Of a DNA stretch of 51,784 nucleotides, positions 1 to 43,645 are shown in pieces. Numbering within the stretch: position 1 is the first letter of the stretch; every line of letters starts with the position of its first letter. The stretch is from Veillonellaceae bacterium (lineage in GTDB: Bacteria > Bacillota > Negativicutes > Veillonellales > Negativicoccaceae), in the NCBI GenBank assembly GCA_022771805.1, contig JALELM010000013.1, forward strand, positions 1 through 51,784, read 5' to 3'. Position numbers and translations under genes: made by a program. The notes beneath the pieces are model-generated. The model searched no databases. It was not told where the DNA came from and saw only the letters and a list, made by a program, of their open reading frames with translations.

Positions 1-801
1 ACGCTCCATAACTACCGCGTAGCCTTCCGCGCCTCGCCCGGCTTACTCGACTTACCGCTTGCCAAAATCAAACACGCCGACGTCCTCGCCGCCGTGCGCT
101 CGTGGGATGTCAAGCCGCTAACGGCCGTTAACCGGCTTAGCTGCCTATCGCGCGTATTTAATCACGCCATCAGGCCTTACCGGCTCCTGGTGGTCAATCC
201 GACAGCCGACATCAAAGTGCGCGTTGATAAACAGCACAAAGTCAAAGCGCTAACCGCCGACGCGCTCGAAGCGTTTCTTGCTAAAGTCGCGGCCGACGCC
301 CCGCCCGCGTTCGTCATTATTTGCCAGCTTGCCGGCCTTGCCGGCTTGCGCCTTTCGGAAGCCCTCGGCCTCACGTGGTCGGACGTCGACTTCTCCGCCG
401 CAACCATTACCATCTCCGGCCAGCTCGGCCTAGCCGGTAAACAGCGCACACCGCCGAAGTCGGCTAACGGCTATCGAACCATACCCGCCCCGCCGCGGCT
501 CCTCGCCGCCCTCGCCGCGTATCGCCGCGAAACGATACCGCACATAAACGGCTTAGTCGTTGGTAACGCTATCGCGCGCAGTACCGTGTTAACGTATGCG
601 CGCCGATATACCAACCGCGCCTTCACGCTCCACGCGCTCCGGCATACCTACGCGACTACGCTTTTGGCGAATGGCGTCGACGTGCGCACAGTCGCCGCCC
701 TCATCGGCGACGACGTGAAAACCGTCCTGTCGACGTATATTCACTATACCGACGACATGCGGGCGCAGGCTGCCGAAGACATAAAAAAGATTTTCGGCTG
801 A
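1..801 (+). CDS. Tyrosine recombinase / phage-type integrase, 5' end outside window
   Basis: The frame is open from base 1 without a start, so the N-terminal part lies left of the window. About 266 residues are visible: the end of a SAM-like core-binding domain, then the catalytic domain. The family's catalytic residues can be seen: Arg in GLRLSEALGL, the HxxR box in HALRHTYATT, and the nucleophile Tyr in TYIHYTDD. Enzymes of this family cut and rejoin DNA at attachment sites of phages and integrative elements. Leucine codons CTA, TTA and CTT and short GCTAAC-type runs are commoner here than in the neighbouring genes, which fits recent transfer. It is the last gene before ordinary chromosomal genes, so it probably marks the end of a mobile element. 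Confidence 0.9.
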   Translation, partial: TLHNYRVAFRASPGLLDLPLAKIKHADVLAAVRSWDVKPLTAVNRLSCLSRVFNHAIRPYRLLVVNPTADIKVRVDKQHKVKALTADALEAFLAKVAADAPPAFVIICQLAGLAGLRLSEALGLTWSDVDFSAATITISGQLGLAGKQRTPPKSANGYRTIPAPPRLLAALAAYRRETIPHINGLVVGNAIARSTVLTYARRYTNRAFTLHALRHTYATTLLANGVDVRTVAALIGDDVKTVLSTYIHYTDDMRAQAAEDIKKIFG

Positions 802-19752: not shown

Positions 19753-21228
<1,476 letters not shown>

Positions 21229-21241
21229 TCAAAACTTCGGT

Positions 21242-21427
21242 TCACTCGTCACAGCGCAAGACGCCGCCGTGCGCCAAATCTTCTTTTTCTATTTCGTGCA
21301 GGACGATCGTAACGTCCTTATGCGGACAAGCCAAATGCGTCACCGTCGCTTCGGTGACCGCCCGTGCAAACGCACGTTTTTGCTCCGCCGTCCGCCCCTT
21401 AATTAAAGATACTTGAATTACCGGCAT
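21242..21427 (-). CDS. 4-oxalocrotonate tautomerase-family protein
   Basis: 61 residues, the usual small size. After removal of Met the protein starts with the catalytic Pro (PVIQVSLIKGRT), followed by Arg11 of the family and a conserved DVTIVLHEI strand. These enzymes move protons between keto and enol forms of small acids; the true substrate is usually unknown. GGGTGG lies five bases before the ATG. It precedes guaB by 25 bases on the same strand. Confidence 0.9.
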   Translation of the reverse strand: MPVIQVSLIKGRTAEQKRAFARAVTEATVTHLACPHKDVTIVLHEIEKEDLAHGGVLRCDE

Positions 21428-21476
21428 CCGTTCCACCCGCTTTCATTATCTGTTGTCCGTATTCAATATTCAATTT

Positions 21477-21482
21477 ATTATA
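21477..21482 (-). promoter_or_regulatory. Extended -10 upstream of tautomerase-guaB run
   Basis: Minus-strand TGTTATAAT, an extended -10 element with the hexamer at 21482-21477. No clear -35. It would start a transcript about 45 bases before the tautomerase gene and could drive the run through surE. Confidence 0.55.
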
Positions 21483-21567
21483 ACATAAGACAAGGTCCGC
21501 TTGCGGAAAATCCTCGGCGCGGCCTTCCCTTGCGGCGAAAAACGCCGCGGCAACACGTTTGTCGCAA

Positions 21568-22005
21568 TTATTCCGCCGGGTATTCCGTGCCGTAAATACG
21601 CCCGAACTCGCGGCAGGCGGCAAGCCCGTCGTCATCGGGCGAGCCTTGGCAGCGCAGGGGTGCCGCAAGAAATTGCGCGCCGGCTTCGTGCGCGTCCTTT
21701 GCCCATTTCTGCAGCCATTCGCCGTGCGACCAGCCGCAGGAGCCGAACAGGCCGAGCTCCTTGCCGCGTAATTGCGGCACCAGCTCGCGGTAGAACGGTT
21801 GCACCTCGTCCTCTTCCAATTCCTCTATACCCATCGCCGGGCAGCCCAGTAGGATCCGGTCGTACCCGCTGATATCCGTCGGCGTCGTGTCCGCATAGGT
21901 CACCAGCAACACATCCGCCCCCGCATCGCGGACTCCGAGAGCGATTTCTTCCGCCATGGTTTCCGTATTGCCGGTGTATGTCCAATATACTATCGCTACG
22001 CGCAT
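21568..22005 (-). CDS. Short-chain flavodoxin (copy 1)
   Basis: 145 residues. FMN-binding phosphate loop TYTGNTETMA, and the ring-binding regions GCPAMGIEELEED and GSCGWSHGEWL. Flavodoxins carry electrons in place of ferredoxin. It follows a very similar flavodoxin gene and a hairpin. It has its own GGGAGAGGA site just before the ATG. The second flavin-stacking loop has Cys-Gly-Trp where copy 2 has Tyr-Ala-Trp, so the redox potential may differ. Confidence 0.93.
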   Translation of the reverse strand: MRVAIVYWTYTGNTETMAEEIALGVRDAGADVLLVTYADTTPTDISGYDRILLGCPAMGIEELEEDEVQPFYRELVPQLRGKELGLFGSCGWSHGEWLQKWAKDAHEAGAQFLAAPLRCQGSPDDDGLAACREFGRIYGTEYPAE

Positions 22006-22030
22006 GTCCTCTCCCTCCCCTATGAAAAAA

Positions 22031-22048
22031 CGCCACGCAAGCGTGGCG
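22031..22048 (-). terminator. Terminator between the two flavodoxin genes
   Basis: The stem CGCCACGC/GCGTGGCG, with T6 on the minus strand, lies a few bases after flavodoxin copy 2. It should limit readthrough to copy 1. Confidence 0.75.
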
Positions 22049-22054
22049 CTTTAT

Positions 22055-22483
22055 TTATGCTTCGGCAATCGCTTTGCCCAACTCTCGGCACGCTTCCAGC
22101 GCATCATCATCCGGATACCCGAAAGCTTTCAGCGGATCACCGGCCAGGTTCGCGCCCGTTTCCGCTACGCGGCCTGCCCATACATCCATCCATTCACCGT
22201 CATTCCAGGCATACGAGCCGAAAATGACCACCTGTTTTCCCGCGAGACTTTCGGAGAGTTCCGAGAAAAACGGCTCAAAATCATACTCCTCCAACTGTTC
22301 CGCTCCCATTGCCGGACAGCCCAAGGCGATATGGTCATAAGCTGCGATATCCGCCGCCGTAACGTCCGTGACAAAGGAAAGTTTCGTTTCCGCCCCGGCC
22401 GCTTTCGCGCCTTCTTCCACCGCCTGTGCCATTGCTTCCGTATTACCGGAGCCGCTCCAGTATACAATTGCTACTTCTGCCAT
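22055..22483 (-). CDS. Short-chain flavodoxin (copy 2)
   Basis: 142 residues. Phosphate loop WSGSGNTEAMA, with ring-binding tracts GCPAMGAEQLEEYDFEPFF and GSYAWNDGEWMD. It is clearly paralogous to the gene directly downstream (shared AIVYW, LGCPAMG and GEW tracts). A consensus-like promoter lies directly upstream, so this copy is probably well expressed. The order suggests a local duplication followed by divergence. Confidence 0.94.
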   Translation of the reverse strand: MAEVAIVYWSGSGNTEAMAQAVEEGAKAAGAETKLSFVTDVTAADIAAYDHIALGCPAMGAEQLEEYDFEPFFSELSESLAGKQVVIFGSYAWNDGEWMDVWAGRVAETGANLAGDPLKAFGYPDDDALEACRELGKAIAEA

Positions 22484-22522
22484 GCCGTACCTCCTTCATT
22501 ACGCATCTATATCGGTATGCTT

Positions 22523-22551
22523 ATCATAAACAAGCCTTGCGTGCTTGTCAA
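22523..22551 (-). promoter_or_regulatory. Strong promoter of flavodoxin genes
   Basis: Minus-strand -35 TTGACA (22551-22546), a 17-base spacer and -10 TATGAT (22528-22523). This is the closest match to the vegetative consensus seen in the window. The -35 overlaps the stop codon of the upstream gene. Confidence 0.8.
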
Positions 22552-23219
22552 TATTTTCCTTTTCCCGCCGCAACGGCTTGCAGCATCGCATCCAACCAAG
22601 CCGCTGACTGCTCATCGCCTTGCAGGACGACCGCTCCGTCCGCCGCCACCAAGACGCGGTAGCTGCGCGGAAATGCCACGCCCTCCCGCACCCCGAGTTT
22701 CACCCAGGTCGCACTGTACATTTCCTTGCCGTACGGGGTCAAGCGAACATTGCCGGCAATTTGCGGCAAGATCTGCGAGTCCCAATACGCAACAGCCTCC
22801 TGCAAACGAGCCTGTGTCGCCCGTTTTTCTTCCGCCGATCCTCGTTTTTTCTCCGCCGATCCTCGTTTTTTCTCCGCCGTTCCCCGCTTATTCGCCAAGC
22901 GATCCTTCAACGAGGGACTTTGCGGCAAAACGGTCACGGCTTGCGGCTGCGGCGGCAAAATGCTCAGCTGTGCATAGGAGAAATGTGCCCCGTTCTGGTG
23001 CCGCAGCAGGTAGTGCTTCCCGCCGCGCAAACCGAAATGCTGCCAATACCGTGCAGCGGTAATCTCAGCGGGTCCGACTGTCGCCAGCGGCATATCCGCC
23101 GTCAATCTCGTCGTATCTTTCGGCAAATCCATCACGCCCCAGCCGGTGAGCGGTGCCGGTACTGCCTGCACCAACATCGCGGTCAAGGCAAACGCCGCCG
23201 TCATCATCGGTATCCGCAT
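22548..23219 (-). CDS. Secreted protein of unknown function with KKRGSAE repeats
   Basis: 223 residues. An N-terminal signal peptide (hydrophobic AAFALTAMLVQA, likely cleaved after an Ala) indicates export. The middle, about residues 110-135, is a charged segment made of near-identical 7-residue units KRGTAEK, KRGSAEK, KRGSAEE, encoded by 21-base tandem repeats. The C-terminal half has Trp and Tyr tracts such as VAYWDSQILPQIAG and PYGKEMYSATW, resembling small 'RTX-free' periplasmic proteins, but I recognise no family. It lies 9 bases after glnS and is probably cotranscribed with it. Confidence 0.7.
   Translation of the reverse strand: MRIPMMTAAFALTAMLVQAVPAPLTGWGVMDLPKDTTRLTADMPLATVGPAEITAARYWQHFGLRGGKHYLLRHQNGAHFSYAQLSILPPQPQAVTVLPQSPSLKDRLANKRGTAEKKRGSAEKKRGSAEEKRATQARLQEAVAYWDSQILPQIAGNVRLTPYGKEMYSATWVKLGVREGVAFPRSYRVLVAADGAVVLQGDEQSAAWLDAMLQAVAAGKGKY
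22822..22884. repeat. Three tandem 21-base repeats inside a coding sequence
   Basis: Units at 22822-22842, 22843-22863 and 22864-22884 share the pattern CGTTTTTTCTCCGCCGATCC with one to three differences. The period is a multiple of three, so copy-number change keeps the frame and only alters the length of the charged linker. Confidence 0.85.
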
Positions 23220-23228
23220 GCCGTTCCC

Positions 23229-24896
23229 TCATTTCTTCTGCAACTTGGCCCAGGTATCCCGCAGCCCGACAATCCGATTCACGACCGGCTGCTCCGGCGT
23301 GCTGTCCCGATCGAGGACGAAATAGCCCTGCCGTTGGAATTGGAAACGCGAGCCGACAGGATATTCCCGCAGCGCCGGTTCGGCCACCGCCTGCAAGACG
23401 GTCAACGAATTCGGCTGTACTTTTTCGAGAAAATCCCGCCCGTCGTCCTCATCTTCCTGGCTGAACAGCGGTTCATACAGACGCGCTTCTAGGGGAACGG
23501 CTTCCGCCACCGGTACCCAGTGCAGCACGCCTTTGACCTTGCGTTGGCTGCCGGGCAGGCCGCTGCGTGTTTCCGGATCGTAGCTGCAACGCAATTCCGT
23601 AATTTCGCCGGCTTCATTTTTCACGACTTCATCGCAGCGAATGATGTAGGCGTTGCGCAGACGCACCTCGCGTCCCGGCGCCAGCCGGAAGAACTTCTTC
23701 ACCGGTTCTTCCATAAAATCCGCCCGTTCGATGTATAATTCTCTGCCGAAAGGAACTTCGCGCGTACCCGCGTCCGGATCTTCCGGATTGTTTTCCAACG
23801 TCATCATTTCCCGCTTGTCTTCGGGATAATTCGTCAGGACGATTTTCAACGGCTCCAACACCGCCATCAGCCGCGGCGCTGTTTTCTTCAAGTCTTCGCG
23901 AATGCAGAACTCGAGCAGGCTCAGATCGACCACGCTGTCATTCTTCGCTACCCCGATGCGTTCGCAGAAATCGCGCAACGCCGCCGGCGTATAGCCGCGC
24001 CGCCGGATCCCGGAGATCGTCGGCATCCGCGGATCGTCCCAACCCGTGACGACGCCTTCTTCCACCAGCCGGCGCAATTTGCGTTTGCTGGTGATCATCG
24101 TCGTGACATTCAGCCGGGCGAACTCGATTTGGCGCGGCAATTCCGCATCCGGCCAACTCCGTAAAAACCACTCGTACAGCGGCCGATGTGCTTCAAATTC
24201 CAACGTACAGATCGAGTGGGTAATCCGCTCGATGGCATCGGATACGGGATGCGCAAAATCGTACATCGGATAGATGCACCAGGCATCGCCCGTACGATGA
24301 TGCGATGCGTGCAGAATCCGGTACATGACGGGATCACGCATGACGATATTCGGGGCCGCCATGTCGATCTTCGCCCGCAGTACCTTCTCGCCCTCCGCAT
24401 ACTTGCCTTCCCGCATTTCCGCAAACAAGCGCAAGTTTTCCTCAACGGAACGATTGCGATACGGGCTTTCCTTGCCCGGCGTATTAAAATCGCCGCGGTA
24501 TTCCCGGATCTCTTCCGTCGTCAGATCGTCCACATACGCGCTGCCCTCGCGAATGAGCCGGCAGGCGTAGTCGTACATCTGCTCGAAATAATCCGAGGCG
24601 TACCGCTCCTCGCCTTCCCATTCGAAACCGAGCCAGCGCACGTCCTCTTCAATGGAACGAACGTATTCCTCTTCTTCTTTGGTCGGATTCGTATCGTCAA
24701 AACGTAAATTCGTCAGACCCCGATATTTCTCGCCCAAGCCGAAATTCAGGCAAATACTCTTGGCATGCCCGATATGCAGGTAACCGTTCGGTTCCGGCGG
24801 AAAACGCGTATGCACGCGCGCATCGGCATACACGCCCGCCGCGATGTCGTTATTGATTTCCGTCTCGATAAAGTTTGTGCTGGTAACTTCTTCCAT
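23229..24896 (-). CDS. glnS: Glutaminyl-tRNA synthetase
   Basis: 555 residues, normal length for GlnRS. It charges tRNA-Gln directly with glutamine. The HIGH motif is in [14 protein letters not shown], with FDDTNPTKE following, and the second ATP motif appears as ITSKRKL (compare MSKRKL in E. coli). The C-terminal part has two anticodon-binding beta barrels, including LHWVPVAEA. The start MEEVTS has GGGAGG six bases ahead. GlnRS is uncommon in Gram-positive relatives, most of which use GatCAB amidation, so the gene may be an old acquisition. Confidence 0.95.
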
Positions 24897-39058: not shown

Positions 39059-40348
39059 TCAATGCGCCGCCAAGTCCGCCGCAATTTCCGGCGGCAAGAT
39101 CAGCCGTCCCGCTTCATCCGCCAAAACGGGGAACACGGTATACGCCGCATTGCTGAATATCTTTTCTTCCCAAGACAGCACGGCACCGTCCGCCGTGCGT
39201 ATCCACTGCGGCGAAAAGGTCAACGCATAGGTGCGGTTTTGGCTCGTGCGTTCGGACAGCACCCGTACCGGCAACCACAGCAGGTATTTCGCCCCCTTGC
39301 TGCGGGCGGCCGCCAACGCCTCTTCCCTCGTTTGCGGGCAGTAGTCGCGATACAACCTTGCCTGCCACTGCAAGCCCGTCGTATGGATGACGGTATTGGC
39401 ATAGGCGCGGCAAAGCGGCACCGAAATTTCCAAGGTGGATGTGACGGGCACCGTCGCCAGGTAGATGTCGGCCGGCTCCTCGGCTTGCAAATGCGCCGGG
39501 AACAACATCGCCGCCTGATAAAACGCTTCGTCCAGGAAGCGGATCATCGAGTGCGGAATTTTCACCGGCGGCGTATGACTGTCCCACTGAATGGAATTCG
39601 GATTGGCATGGTAGCCGGCCTTGAACAGCCGGAATACATTCGGCAACACATCCGCATTCATCGTGTAATTTACCGTTACGAGATCCTTCGCCTGCTCCCA
39701 TACCGCCGCATCGGCAAAGGCGGGCGCGGCAAAAGTAATTACCTTCGTCCGCTCGGGCAGCGTGCCGCCCCGCTTGCCCTCCAAGCCGATCACCAGCGCC
39801 ACGCTGCCGCCGAGACTGTGCCCCGTCAGCAGCAACCGGCCGCCGTTCGCCGCGGCCTGCCCGAAGGCTTCCGTCGCCATGATCCGTTGCGCCGCTTCCC
39901 AATAGCCGGCATGCACACGCGCGCCCGGGATACTGACGATTTCCTTCAGGCTGTCGGCCAGATTTGTCTTCAGATCCGTTTTCCGTTCCGTACCGGAAAT
40001 GGCGACGACAGTGTACGGACTTCCGTCAATCAGCCGGGTTGCGATGAGAAAGCGTTCCTTTCCCGTATCGTGGTACGACACCTCATAGCCGGCACGCGTC
40101 AACGCCCGCGCCGGCAGCTCATTCCACTCGGACTCATATGCGCCCATCGCCGCATACGCCGCCAGCAATACCTCATTCGAATTTGTCCCCGCTTCGCTCA
40201 TCAAGGCCGCACTGCGCAGATCCGGCGCGACAATATTGGCTTCCTGCGCCGGCAAGGGTGTCGGCAACTCCGCCGCCGTCACCGCAAACCCGCAAATCGC
40301 CAATGCGCCCGCCAAAAAAGCCGGCAGCCATCTTCCCTGCCTATTCAT
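39059..40348 (-). CDS. Secreted class 3 lipase-family protein
   Basis: 429 residues. A signal peptide (about 1-26, hydrophobic FLAGALAICGFAVTA) sends it out of the cytoplasm. The alpha/beta-hydrolase core has the nucleophile elbow GHSLGGSVAL, with AISGTERKTD (oxyanion strand), and likely acid and His in NADVLPN and the SHTPPVKIPHSMIRF tract. A second domain of about 130 residues (from roughly 300) has no recognised relatives and may bind a surface or partner. The start MNRQGR overlaps the end of the upstream gene by 8 bases, so the two are coupled. The substrate is unknown. Confidence 0.85.
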   Translation of the reverse strand: MNRQGRWLPAFLAGALAICGFAVTAAELPTPLPAQEANIVAPDLRSAALMSEAGTNSNEVLLAAYAAMGAYESEWNELPARALTRAGYEVSYHDTGKERFLIATRLIDGSPYTVVAISGTERKTDLKTNLADSLKEIVSIPGARVHAGYWEAAQRIMATEAFGQAAANGGRLLLTGHSLGGSVALVIGLEGKRGGTLPERTKVITFAAPAFADAAVWEQAKDLVTVNYTMNADVLPNVFRLFKAGYHANPNSIQWDSHTPPVKIPHSMIRFLDEAFYQAAMLFPAHLQAEEPADIYLATVPVTSTLEISVPLCRAYANTVIHTTGLQWQARLYRDYCPQTREEALAAARSKGAKYLLWLPVRVLSERTSQNRTYALTFSPQWIRTADGAVLSWEEKIFSNAAYTVFPVLADEAGRLILPPEIAADLAAH

Positions 40349-41585
40349 TCCCTGCCTCCAAACTGTCTTCCCATGCCGTCTGCGCCGCCGCGTATCGGGC
40401 GGCCGCCGCCAAGAACCGTTCCGTTGCGACCGAGTCGACCGCCGGCGGCAACGGCAACCGCAACCAGGCACTGCAAGGCTGCGGTGCAAAGGCGGCGCGT
40501 CCGGCGCAAATCGCCCGACGTCCCGCCGTACTGTGCAAAAAGGCGTACAGAGCCAAGGCCGTCTGCCGCTCCTGCGCCCGCAATACAAAACCGTAGGGTG
40601 GCAAATCCCGCGCCGCTTGTGCCGCAGCAACCCACAGCACACGATAGCCGGTACTGTCCTGCAGCACGACCAGATCTCCCTCGCGCCATGCCGAGCCTGC
40701 TTCCCGCGGCAGCAATACCGCCTGCTCCGTCCCCCGCAGCGGCGCTTCTCCCGTCGCGGTCACCACGTCCGCCGCCGTCGCCAATGTCGGTTCTGCCGGC
40801 CACAGACTTTGCTCCCAGATCTCCGGCTCGCTCGTCTCATAACGAAAGGCCCCATGCTCATAATACGCATAGCCCCGCACGACTTCCTCCCGCGGCAGCC
40901 GGGAAAGCAAAAGGGATTCGCCCGTTTCGGCGGCATATACATAGGCGGTCAAATCCGCCTCCGGCGCCGTTGCGGGCAAGGCATCCCAAGCGGCAAATGC
41001 GCCGCCCGCCGCCAAGACCGTCAGCCGTTCCCGCGATCGCCCGTCCCGTGCATACACCAGCACGCCGTCATATTGCCGTGTTGCGGCCGCCGCCTCACTT
41101 TGCCACTGCACCGCCGGAAGCAACACCTGCCAGCGCTGCGCTTCCTCGGCGGTCGGCACCGTCGCATGCAGAACATACCGCTCTTGCGCGGCCAATCGTT
41201 TCAGTTCCCGATACAGAGCGCGGCCGCCGACAACCAGTACATCGCTGCCGGTCGGCAATTGCGCCAACGCCCGCTCCCACCACGCCGCAACGAGCTCGCC
41301 CTCGGGGCTCTGCGCCAGCGGCAAAAACGGTGTCGGATCCGTCCACAGCGCGGCTTGGTACAGAGGCAGGTACTGCGCCGGATCGCCGGCATACGGCGGC
41401 ACTCCGGGCAGTTGCAACTTCGTCACCGCCGCCGCAATCGTTTCTTCCGTGACACCGTATAACTTATTGGACGCATCGGCAAATAAGACACTGTCCACAT
41501 GCCGCGCGCGCAGTATCTCTTGAAAAATATTCTCTTCGGCAACACCCAACTCGGCAAAACGCGCCGTTTCTTCCGCCTGTATCAT
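40341..41585 (-). CDS. Unrecognised 414-residue protein
   Basis: No signal peptide or membrane segment; rich in Ala, Leu and Glu. I do not recognise a family with confidence. The part GDLVVLQDSTGYRV to FLHSTAGRRAI and then LRLPLPPAVDS resembles the end of a type I restriction specificity (HsdS) target-recognition domain, and the last 30 residues look like its helix. The N-terminal half (TGSDVLVVGGRALYRELKR) could be a degenerate N6-methyltransferase-like fold. Both are guesses. It overlaps the secreted lipase gene by 8 bases and should be cotranscribed. It follows a terminator of the preceding unit, so a promoter should lie near 41590-41605. Confidence 0.6.
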   Translation of the reverse strand: MIQAEETARFAELGVAEENIFQEILRARHVDSVLFADASNKLYGVTEETIAAAVTKLQLPGVPPYAGDPAQYLPLYQAALWTDPTPFLPLAQSPEGELVAAWWERALAQLPTGSDVLVVGGRALYRELKRLAAQERYVLHATVPTAEEAQRWQVLLPAVQWQSEAAAATRQYDGVLVYARDGRSRERLTVLAAGGAFAAWDALPATAPEADLTAYVYAAETGESLLLSRLPREEVVRGYAYYEHGAFRYETSEPEIWEQSLWPAEPTLATAADVVTATGEAPLRGTEQAVLLPREAGSAWREGDLVVLQDSTGYRVLWVAAAQAARDLPPYGFVLRAQERQTALALYAFLHSTAGRRAICAGRAAFAPQPCSAWLRLPLPPAVDSVATERFLAAAARYAAAQTAWEDSLEAGNE

Positions 41586-41607: not shown

Positions 41608-41634
41608 AAAAAAGGAGCCCCGCCCGGAGCCCCC
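41608..41634 (-). terminator. Terminator of small unknown gene
   Basis: On the minus strand GGGCTCC pairs with GGGGCTC (two G-T pairs) and is followed by T6. Confidence 0.65.
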
Positions 41635-41637
41635 GCA

Positions 41638-42033
41638 TTACATTATTTGGATACCGCAACAACTGTACGATGGCGTCAACATCACCACGACCGAATTCCC
41701 GGCAAACAGTTCGCCCACTTCGAAATAGACCATAATGCCCTCGTCGCTGCGTGCATAGACTCCCGCAATGCGATTCAAATATGGCAGGATCGTTTCCTCC
41801 GTAAAGGGTTGCTCATCCATTTCCAGCCAGTGCTCATTTTTCAAGCTCAGACTGTACAATGCCATCTCCCGCAACGCTTCACGCCGCTCCGTCAATCCTT
41901 CCCAGACTTCCTGACCGTAGGCTGCCGCCGCTTCGCTTTCATGTTCCGCAAACGGTTCCACCGACAGGAGTACCGGATGATCGCCGTCCATCACTTCCGC
42001 AATGAATCCCGTGCCCATAAAAGCCCATTTCAT
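41638..42033 (-). CDS. Small soluble protein of unknown function
   Basis: 131 residues, acidic, ending in a hydrophobic strand with the pair Cys-Cys (SYSCCGIQIM). It begins MKWAFMGTGF and has a helix-rich middle (VWEGLTERREALREMALYS). No family is recognised; a DUF2262-type resemblance is possible but weak. GGAGGG lies eight bases ahead of the ATG, with a good promoter further upstream. A single-gene unit. Confidence 0.7.
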   Translation of the reverse strand: MKWAFMGTGFIAEVMDGDHPVLLSVEPFAEHESEAAAAYGQEVWEGLTERREALREMALYSLSLKNEHWLEMDEQPFTEETILPYLNRIAGVYARSDEGIMVYFEVGELFAGNSVVVMLTPSYSCCGIQIM

Positions 42034-42055: not shown

Positions 42056-42084
42056 ATTATAGCGCGCCGAACCGCGCTTGTCGA
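42056..42084 (-). promoter_or_regulatory. Promoter of small unknown gene
   Basis: Minus-strand -35 TCGACA (42084-42079), a 17-base spacer and -10 TATAAT (42061-42056). Confidence 0.7.
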
Positions 42085-42102: not shown

Positions 42103-42735
42103 TTACTGCGCCGCCGACGGGCAGACCGCGCGCAAGGCACATTCCGCACAGAGCGGCTTGCGCGCTTTGCAGACCAGGCGACCGTGCCAAATCAGCCAAT
42201 GATGTGCCGCCGCCCAGTCTTGCCGCGGAATGTGTTTCTGCAGACCTTTCTCGACCTCCAGCGGTGTGTTCCCGCGCGCCAACCCCAGCCGGTTCGCCAC
42301 TCGGAAAACGTGCGTATCCACCGCAATAGCCGGCGTATTGTACAACACGCTCACCAAGACATTGGCCGTTTTGCGCCCGACACCTGGCAACTGCACCAAT
42401 TCCTCAAAGGTTTGCGGCACTTCGCCGTCATACTCCGCCAATAAAATCCGGCAGGTTTCCAGCAAATGTTTCGCCTTGCTGCGAAACAGCCCGACATCAT
42501 GAATCTCCGCTTCAAGCTCCGCCTGTGTCAGTGCCGCCATCTTCGCTGGCGTTCCGAGCCGCGGGAACATTCGCGCCGTGATGATATTCACCCGCTCATC
42601 CGTACTCTGCGCCGACAGCACCACCGCCACCAACAGCTCGAACGGGGAGCGATAATGCAGCGCGGTCTTGCGGTCGCCGTATGCGGCGGCCAAAATACGC
42701 AGCTGCTCGGCGCGGAGCGCCTTGGTTACCCGCAT
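42103..42735 (-). CDS. nth: Endonuclease III
   Basis: 210 residues. A base-excision repair glycosylase/lyase that removes oxidised pyrimidines. The helix-hairpin-helix holds catalytic Lys122 (LPGVGRKTANVL), with Asp140 in VDTHVFR. The 4Fe-4S cysteines are C189, C196, C199 and C205. The start MRVTKAL lies just after the trxB stop codon (TAG then one base), so the two genes are coupled; upstream in-frame codons fall inside trxB. Confidence 0.95.
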   Translation of the reverse strand: MRVTKALRAEQLRILAAAYGDRKTALHYRSPFELLVAVVLSAQSTDERVNIITARMFPRLGTPAKMAALTQAELEAEIHDVGLFRSKAKHLLETCRILLAEYDGEVPQTFEELVQLPGVGRKTANVLVSVLYNTPAIAVDTHVFRVANRLGLARGNTPLEVEKGLQKHIPRQDWAAAHHWLIWHGRLVCKARKPLCAECALRAVCPSAAQ

Positions 42736-42736
42736 C

Positions 42737-43645
42737 CTACTGCCGCAGGAGGTAGGCATGCGCCGCCAGCGCCGCCTTGGCTCCGTCCGCCGCGGCAATG
42801 ATAATCTGCCGATCCGGATAATCGGTCACATCACCCGAAGCAAAAAATCCCGGAATATTCGTCGATGTATCTCGCGCGACGATGATCTCGTTATTTTCAT
42901 TGCGTTCCAGTTCCGCCGGAACGAAACCGGTATTCGGCTCGCCGCCGATTTCCACGAAAACGCCGTCCGTCTCGATAATTTCTTCTTCGCCCGTATCCGT
43001 ATTTTTCACTCGAATACCCGACACTTTTTTCTCACCGAGGATTTCCAGCGGAATATAATGATGCCATTCCTTTACCTCGGTCGTTTCCCGCATCTTCGTC
43101 ACCAGCACCTCGGAAGCCCGGATCCGGCTGCGTACCAGCATATGCACTTCCGTCGCCAGCTTGCTCAGGTCGATGGCCGCCTCCACGGCGGAATCTCCCG
43201 CGCCGACCACGACGACCCGGCGGTTCCGGTAAAACGGCCCGTCGCAGGTTGCACAATAGCTCACCCCGCGGCCGGAAAGCATCTCTTCACCCGGGATGTT
43301 CAAGGTGCGGCTGCGCTTCCCGCTCGCCAGAATAACGGTACGCCCCCGCTGTTCCTCGCCGCTGTCGGTCACGGCGGTAAATGTTCCGTCCGCTTCCCGG
43401 CGCAGAGAAGAAATATCCGCCGTAATCCATTCGATCGGATACTTGTCGATATGTTCGCTGAACTTCTGCAGGAGTCCGAAACTGTCCATATCCGTATAAC
43501 CGAGGTAGTTTTCCACCTCCTGCGTGGACGTGATCTGCCCGCCCCGGTTGGCGGCAATTACCCCGACGGAAAGTTCTTTGCGCGCACCGTACAATGCCGC
43601 ATTCATACCGGCGGGACCGCCGCCGATGATCAGAATATCAAACAT
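42737..43645 (-). CDS. trxB: Thioredoxin-disulfide reductase
   Basis: 302 residues. FAD loop IIGGGPAGMNAALYGARK, the redox-active disulfide CATC (SYCATCDGPF), the NADPH loop VVGAGDSAVEAA, and FASGDVTD for FAD near the C terminus. It reduces thioredoxin with NADPH. The ribosome site is AAAGGAGGA. The start MFDILIIGG is supported by the usual distance to the FAD loop. It heads a unit with nth, and its leader contains a tandem repeat. Confidence 0.95.
   Translation of the reverse strand: MFDILIIGGGPAGMNAALYGARKELSVGVIAANRGGQITSTQEVENYLGYTDMDSFGLLQKFSEHIDKYPIEWITADISSLRREADGTFTAVTDSGEEQRGRTVILASGKRSRTLNIPGEEMLSGRGVSYCATCDGPFYRNRRVVVVGAGDSAVEAAIDLSKLATEVHMLVRSRIRASEVLVTKMRETTEVKEWHHYIPLEILGEKKVSGIRVKNTDTGEEEIIETDGVFVEIGGEPNTGFVPAELERNENNEIIVARDTSTNIPGFFASGDVTDYPDRQIIIAAADGAKAALAAHAYLLRQ

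Follow-up and report, generated by a model that had tools for sequence, protein, structure and literature searches.

Why should a protein of no recognised family, with no signal peptide, be encoded in overlap with an exported lipase? The question is raised by a stretch of 51,784 bases from a Veillonellaceae bacterium (contig JALELM010000013.1 of assembly GCA_022771805.1; contig C5 of our genome G000), the whole of which we call the window, and in which a 414-codon gene (X, encoding protein P0001) precedes a lipase gene (protein P0002). A first-pass annotation had seen a faint likeness to restriction specificity subunits at the end of X and had called its coupling to a lipase odd. Our analysis favours, with a probability of roughly 0.6, the reading that X descends from a restriction-modification protein and has been kept by vertical inheritance in a non-catalytic form, in which a dead methyltransferase fold is joined to one half of an HsdS-type target-recognition domain (TRD) region; a functional pairing with the lipase is unlikely.

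To place X, we used 60 genomes of the order, which consists of anaerobes, from four families, namely the window's own family (f1, including Negativicoccus; 4 genomes), f2 (including Dialister; 12), f3 (17) and f4, which carries what we term the Veillonella-type X (27). We take f3 to be presumably the Megasphaeraceae and f4 the Veillonellaceae in the strict sense. On its own, P0001 had no match in Pfam, NCBIfam or PADLOC at E up to 1; its best PDB sequence match, CAIR mutase (E 0.017), was taken as chance, and a search of phage DNA with the window stretch gave no match. Searched for with a single sequence, X turned up in 13 of the 60 genomes, the window's included, and six of these 13 homologues matched type I specificity models in NCBIfam (MAD5, best E 8.5e-7) while six matched the commonest Specificity_I model of PADLOC (best listed E 4.8e-8); P0001 itself matched none of these specificity models. 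A profile of the 13 members (A1) matched, over its positions 365-483, the Esub1 chains 8vsr and 8vsq among PDB sequences (E 2e-14).

The next relatives of X were found by a class-wide search in other Negativicutes, as open frames of 536-575 residues. These proteins, of about 530 residues, combine a dead N6-adenine methyltransferase with one HsdS-type TRD, and all four that were scanned in Pfam matched Methylase_S (E 9e-13 to 2e-11), with a faint N6_Mtase domain ahead of it (E 6e-7 to 4e-5). When A1 was aligned by hhalign with a profile of six such fusions (A2), the match ran over the full length (473 columns, probability 99.8, E 1.3e-28), whereas the control alignment of A1 with the true HsdM of the same operons gave E 0.063. 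The Veillonella-type X aligned with A1 through columns up to 297 (E 5.5e-21), and with the fusions directly over its first half only (E 9.5e-6). The likeness suspected at the end of X is thus real homology, carried by both the Esub1 and the fusion matches, and X is tied to methylase and restriction proteins rather than to proteins that have nothing to do with DNA. A tree of 30 proteins separated the X of the three families from the fusions with a support of 100/100; the X rows of the window and of G001 are long-branched there and their mutual placement is unsure, and window X shares only 25-26% identity with each of the three remaining f1 proteins.

What sets X apart from an active methyltransferase is the loss of its motifs. 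Motif IV of the NPPF type (pattern [NDS]PP[YFW]) was present in all five HsdM controls and in none of 13 X, five Veillonella-type X and six fusions, the fusions reading LPSFG, IPSFG, FPAFG, LPAFG or LPNFG in its place. Likewise, the DPCCGSG-type motif I loop for S-adenosylmethionine (SAM) was found in 5/5 HsdM and was absent in 18 X rows, a loose motif I pattern catching a G-x-G-like string in three of the 13 A1 rows. Because motif IV and the cofactor loop are missing from X and present in the HsdM controls, we read X as catalytically dead by sequence.

The fusions themselves stand in a recurrent setting, in which the repeated gene order is fusion, hsdM, often a RhuM gene, hsdS and hsdR. The next recognisable same-strand gene downstream was hsdM in all 12 testable fusion loci, including one from a viral contig, with a gap within about 65 bases in 11 of the 12; a 123-residue open reading frame (ORF) separates the two genes in L063. 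This count leaves aside L080 and L123, where the fusion lies at a contig edge, L124, L079 and L077, which are diverged or fragmentary with HsdM-like pieces about 1-1.5 kb off, and one further match in G478; hsdM at L146 was named from reading the ORF, not from a family search. When 199 genomes sampled from the phylum were searched with the fusion profile, 31 gave a match at E <= 1e-10 and only seven did so over most of its length, so we consider the gene recurrent rather than common. A scan of viral contigs gave one fusion relative, and a plasmid search with one fusion returned 60 records, none spanning 80% of it. None of the listed Pfam, PADLOC and NCBIfam models covers the full length of the fusion. 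Our data suggest that the fusions are an additional gene, so far without a label, of type I restriction operons of a recurrent kind; an extra gene before hsdM was not found discussed in the open-access subset of the literature, where absence is no proof that it is unpublished. Two further arrangements were seen: at L079 (6273-9479; G059, f4) a fusion is followed by an ADP-ribosylglycohydrolase joined in one frame to the N-terminal part of HsdM, and at L078 (G005) an N6_Mtase/Methylase_S protein has a PLD-like protein and an unfused ADP-ribosylglycohydrolase gene in its vicinity.

Esub1 is the nearest relative of X with a solved structure. The PDB entries behind the Esub1 match, 8vsq and 8vsr, are titled 'Crystal structure of Esub1' and 'Co-crystal structure of Prx with Esub1', and the Esub1 chains match the profile of the operon fusions at E 9e-44. 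A description of Esub1, its host or its role was not found in the open-access literature subset searched. The Prx of the co-crystal is presumably paratox, a streptococcal phage protein, and there are hints, by analogy, that Esub1 too may have a DNA-binding surface that Prx would cover. Passages of PMC11129628 refer to Prx partners still to be discovered and contain no mention of endonuclease or restriction.

Unlike the fusions, X does not sit in restriction operons. Using A1, the N-terminal part of a further homologue was matched in 27/27 f4 genomes, and a combined 17-row profile (A8) found no full-length X in 17/17 f3 genomes or in 3/12 f2 genomes; X is therefore present in 4/4 f1, 9/12 f2, 0/17 f3 and 27/27 f4 genomes. 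Two f3 genomes (G005, G017) match the X profile only in the recognition-domain part. The neighbours of X are kept within each family. All nine f4 loci examined have the endonuclease III gene (nth) immediately upstream of X, on its strand. The three f1 loci examined at sufficient length read nth, DUF2262, X, lipase, holB, ricT, and in the fourth genome (G003) the genes seen are DUF2262, X and lipase, in that order. A Ham1/RdgB gene follows X in 9/9 f2 loci, adjoining it in eight (it was named by tblastn in four loci and by reading the translation in the rest, the Pfam name coming from one). X is thus a chromosomal gene with inherited synteny, and no hsdM or other hsd gene was found beside X at the loci examined.

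This distribution bears on whether X could serve in trans as an accessory subunit of a resident type I restriction system, as the fusions presumably do in cis. Such a role would suit the full-length homology of X to genes directly upstream of hsdM, and in a search of 26 genomes, 21 of them X carriers, for N6_Mtase and Methylase_S, most carriers had matches to both, including the window's genome, whose type I genes lie on contig C13. However, G003 and G012 keep X with no N6_Mtase and no Methylase_S match, while two other carriers lack Methylase_S and have only weak N6_Mtase matches, one of 23 bits in a 303-residue ORF of the prfA neighbourhood (G045) or short ones (G030); the loci of X are, moreover, free of hsd genes. 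Since X genomes lacking a detectable restriction system exist, we set the trans-acting subunit aside as improbable and conclude that X is not dependent on such a system. On contig C13 of the window's genome, an N6_Mtase gene is followed by three separate Methylase_S frames of 206-229 residues (20943-23746). These frames may form a specificity locus capable of switching. Another type I locus lies at 145511-147933.

To gauge the constraint on X, we compared ratios of non-synonymous to synonymous substitution (dN/dS). Between the two Negativicoccus genomes X had a ratio of 0.433, as against 0.098 in the lipase and 0.139 in DUF2262; in a Dialister pair it was 0.153 for X against 0.06 for RdgB. Elsewhere X gave 0.193 and 0.211 in g9 and 0.056 in one Veillonella-type pair, another such pair being saturated. 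X is under purifying selection, loosest in f1. That X might be a functionless, decaying remnant would fit its fast evolution in Negativicoccus and the lack of a full-length X in all f3 and some f2 genomes, but we consider this most improbable, as internal stops are absent in the X rows listed, every f4 and f1 genome keeps the gene, and the other computable pairs gave 0.056-0.211.

The pattern of conservation within X raises a further possibility, namely that X is a protein-binding scaffold acting through its N-terminal helical part, its DNA recognition wholly lost. Conservation is highest at residues 21-80, and E23, R26, D31 and G44 are invariant across 17 X rows; the C-terminus is acidic, and in f1 both the middle and the recognition part are trimmed, window X being shorter than the f2 members. 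Yet the C-terminal part is still TRD-like in profile, residues 341-360 are nearly as conserved as the N-terminus, and L117 and W405 are invariant too. A complete loss of DNA recognition appears rather unlikely. Within f1, where X is acidic and trimmed, DNA reading may have faded, with a protein-protein role perhaps replacing it.

Several results weigh against a descent of X from a restriction-modification protein, or against its binding of DNA. None of the 13 X members matches PF02384 or PF01420 directly, the fusions match the HsdM profile only weakly (probability 19.6, E 0.0012), and hhalign did not reach the C-terminal half of the Veillonella-type X, so that a TRD is unproven there. The AlphaFold2 model of X is weak, with a mean predicted local distance difference test score (pLDDT) of 58.8 and a predicted template-modelling score of 0.40 from an 8-row alignment. 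It has no Foldseek match at E <= 0.001, shikimate dehydrogenase (1.3e-3) ranks ahead of Esub1 (2.1e-3 and 2.6e-3), and over residues 88-225 Rossmann dehydrogenases score like methyltransferases (Z 8-10). P0001 is acidic (isoelectric point 4.8), with a net charge of -7 over its C-terminal 185 residues, and the charge falls to -17 in the Veillonella-type X, unlike a typical DNA-binding surface. Lastly, X may have come to lie near repair genes by chance, as can happen where genomes are compact. To be set beside these points, ten-residue pLDDT means lie between 60 and 88 over residues 1-180, falling below 50 at 179-265 and 271-297, and a VIA-align search ranked Esub1 first for model residues 263-414 (Z 10.0, 135 residues, root-mean-square deviation 5.5). 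The C-terminal part is near neutral or slightly basic in four of the nine f2 proteins, and the fusions too are only near neutral. The model agrees, without proving it, with a protein that begins in helices, has a Rossmann fold at its centre and ends in a recognition-like part.

Taking the descent from a restriction-modification protein as our preferred reading, the methyltransferase fold of X would have lost its cofactor and catalytic motifs and become fused to half of an HsdS-type recognition region. X would then act in the cytoplasm in a non-enzymatic manner, binding DNA through the remaining recognition domain, a partner through its well-conserved helical N-terminus, or both. Its role would probably lie in DNA upkeep, because its neighbours are endonuclease III in two families and Ham1/RdgB in a third; endonuclease III acts in base-excision repair and Ham1/RdgB in cleaning the nucleotide pool. 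In f1, the trimmed and acidic recognition part may have passed from DNA reading to a protein-protein role. A bolder extension is possible though doubtful: the dead methyltransferase with its single TRD may be an unnamed extra type I subunit whose TRD is of the kind gripped by phage Prx, which three of the four families would have made a stand-alone DNA reader beside repair or nucleotide-cleaning genes, and one family would have turned into an acidic scaffold that no longer reads DNA.

It remains to account for the lipase. P0002 matches Lipase_3 (PF01764) at residues 114-239 (E 7.5e-15, 55.5 bits against a cut-off of 22), as do all 12 relatives in our lipase alignment (A7; E up to 0.1), from which four of the 16 lipase loci (L016, L020, L023, L028) were left out. 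Ser178, Asp233 and His266, the presumed catalytic triad, are invariant in these 12, and GHSLGG is present. A hydrophobic stretch followed by FAVTA-AE, judged by eye, gives P0002 the appearance of an exported protein. An extra C-terminal domain of about 130-140 residues (about 290-419) is encoded on the minus strand at 39059-39480 of the window. It is present in the same 12 relatives, and none of the Pfam families listed matched it. The description of the second gene as an exported class 3 lipase with some 130 additional residues is therefore upheld, export on visual grounds. Its AlphaFold model is weak (pLDDT 48.6, 2-row alignment) with no Foldseek match at E <= 0.001; the best rows, acetyl-CoA carboxylase fragments, were disregarded (template-modelling score about 0.16). 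The model of the extra domain is faintly like PelC (E 9.1e-3) and LpoB (E 8.3e-2). PelC and LpoB are periplasmic or outer-membrane lipoprotein domains, and the order has an outer membrane; a periplasmic or surface role of the lipase would thus fit, though as a hint only. Elsewhere, a lipase homologue carries a TAG stop in G005 (L020) and another is broken into two frames in G035 (C7:36400-37628).

Could X and the lipase nonetheless form a functional, co-translated pair, the cytoplasmic protein controlling or assisting the exported enzyme? The 8-base overlap is borne out by the coordinates (Table 1), a Shine-Dalgarno-like GGGAGG precedes the ATG of X, and a ribosome-binding-like GGAGG lies within X, 6 bases before that of the lipase. 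Nor is the adjacency confined to this genome, as the two ORFs overlap in all four f1 genomes despite the low identity of window X to the others (by 8 bases in G000, 4 in G001 and up to 49 in the Negativicoccus pair, whose lipase start is uncertain). However, such overlaps are nothing unusual in this cluster, in which holB and ricT have ORFs that share 29 bases. Of the 60 genomes, 16 carry a lipase of this family (4/4 f1, 2/12 f2, 10/17 f3, 0/27 f4), the two f2 carriers, G009 and G024, both being without X, and none of the other 56 genomes has both genes (36 X only, 12 lipase only). The strongly different constraint on X and lipase in the Negativicoccus pair also speaks against joint function. 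Because no sampled genome outside f1 carries both genes, a functional pair is unlikely, and cooperation of X with the lipase is to us highly improbable. Of the odd coupling first described, the adjacency stands and its meaning as a pair is not supported: it appears to be lineage-specific synteny, the lipase being a newcomer or accident of f1, and P0002 appears to be an independent class 3 enzyme, secreted to judge from its sequence, that follows X in f1 alone.

Table 1. Features of the X locus, predicted parts of X and fusion loci upstream of hsdM
Feature	Position	Strand	Details	Basis
X (P0001)	40341..41585	-	414 residues; ATG at 41585, stop ending 40341	ORF and translation
Lipase (P0002)	39059..40348	-	429 residues; ATG at 40348, stop ending 39059	
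Overlap of X end and lipase start	40341..40348	-	8 bases	Sequence
DUF2262 gene	41638..42033	-	Between nth and X, kept in f1	PF10020 E 8e-07; synteny
Endonuclease III (nth) ORF	42103..42798	-	Neighbour of X in two families	PF00730 E 1.3e-24; synteny
Terminator-like hairpin and T run	41613..41634	-	Between DUF2262 gene and X	Site scan
Promoter-like site	42056-42084	-	Before DUF2262 gene; 11/12 matches	Site scan
Predicted parts of X	residues ~1-87; ~88-225; ~259-414		Helical N-terminus; Rossmann-like, putatively dead methyltransferase core; shortened TRD-like end	Low-confidence model and profiles
Fusion loci upstream of hsdM	L062:7068-8684; L063; L064; L065; L066; L061; L118-L122; L146:253-1872			

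The true start of nth is probably downstream of the start of the ORF in Table 1. In the site scan, neither the terminator-like nor the promoter-like class was commoner than chance.

To conclude, our analysis assigns an origin to a hypothetical protein conserved among Negativicoccus, Dialister and, presumably, Veillonella relatives. Should X bind DNA, it would exemplify the recruitment of a restriction subunit to housekeeping, and its presence in genomes without detectable type I genes makes a DNA-binding role testable without a restriction background. The locus also warns against inferring function from an 8-base overlap in a compact gene cluster.

Set against known systems, P0002 shares with class 3 lipases (PF01764) the core domain and the invariant Ser, Asp and His positions, and differs in its extra C-terminal domain, which is conserved across the order. 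X has the domain order of the type I operon fusion over its full length and the same loss of motif I and NPPF, but it is shorter (414 residues in the window), more diverged and stand-alone, not beside hsdM. With Esub1 (8vsq, 8vsr) it shares the C-terminal recognition-like domain, at the E of 2e-14 given above, whereas the solved Esub1 chain comprises about 200 residues without a methyltransferase part. HsdS consists of two TRDs joined by spacer helices; subunits such as EcoKI S (2y7c) are related to X through the TRD by way of the operon fusions (E 1.2e-13), while X has one shortened TRD-like unit, from about residue 259 of 414, behind the methyltransferase-like part. With HsdM (PF02384), X would share the fold of its central part, although it is without the SAM motif and NPPF and has no direct PF02384 match (0/13). 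On our preferred reading, X is a worn-down, stand-alone form of a known kind of protein.

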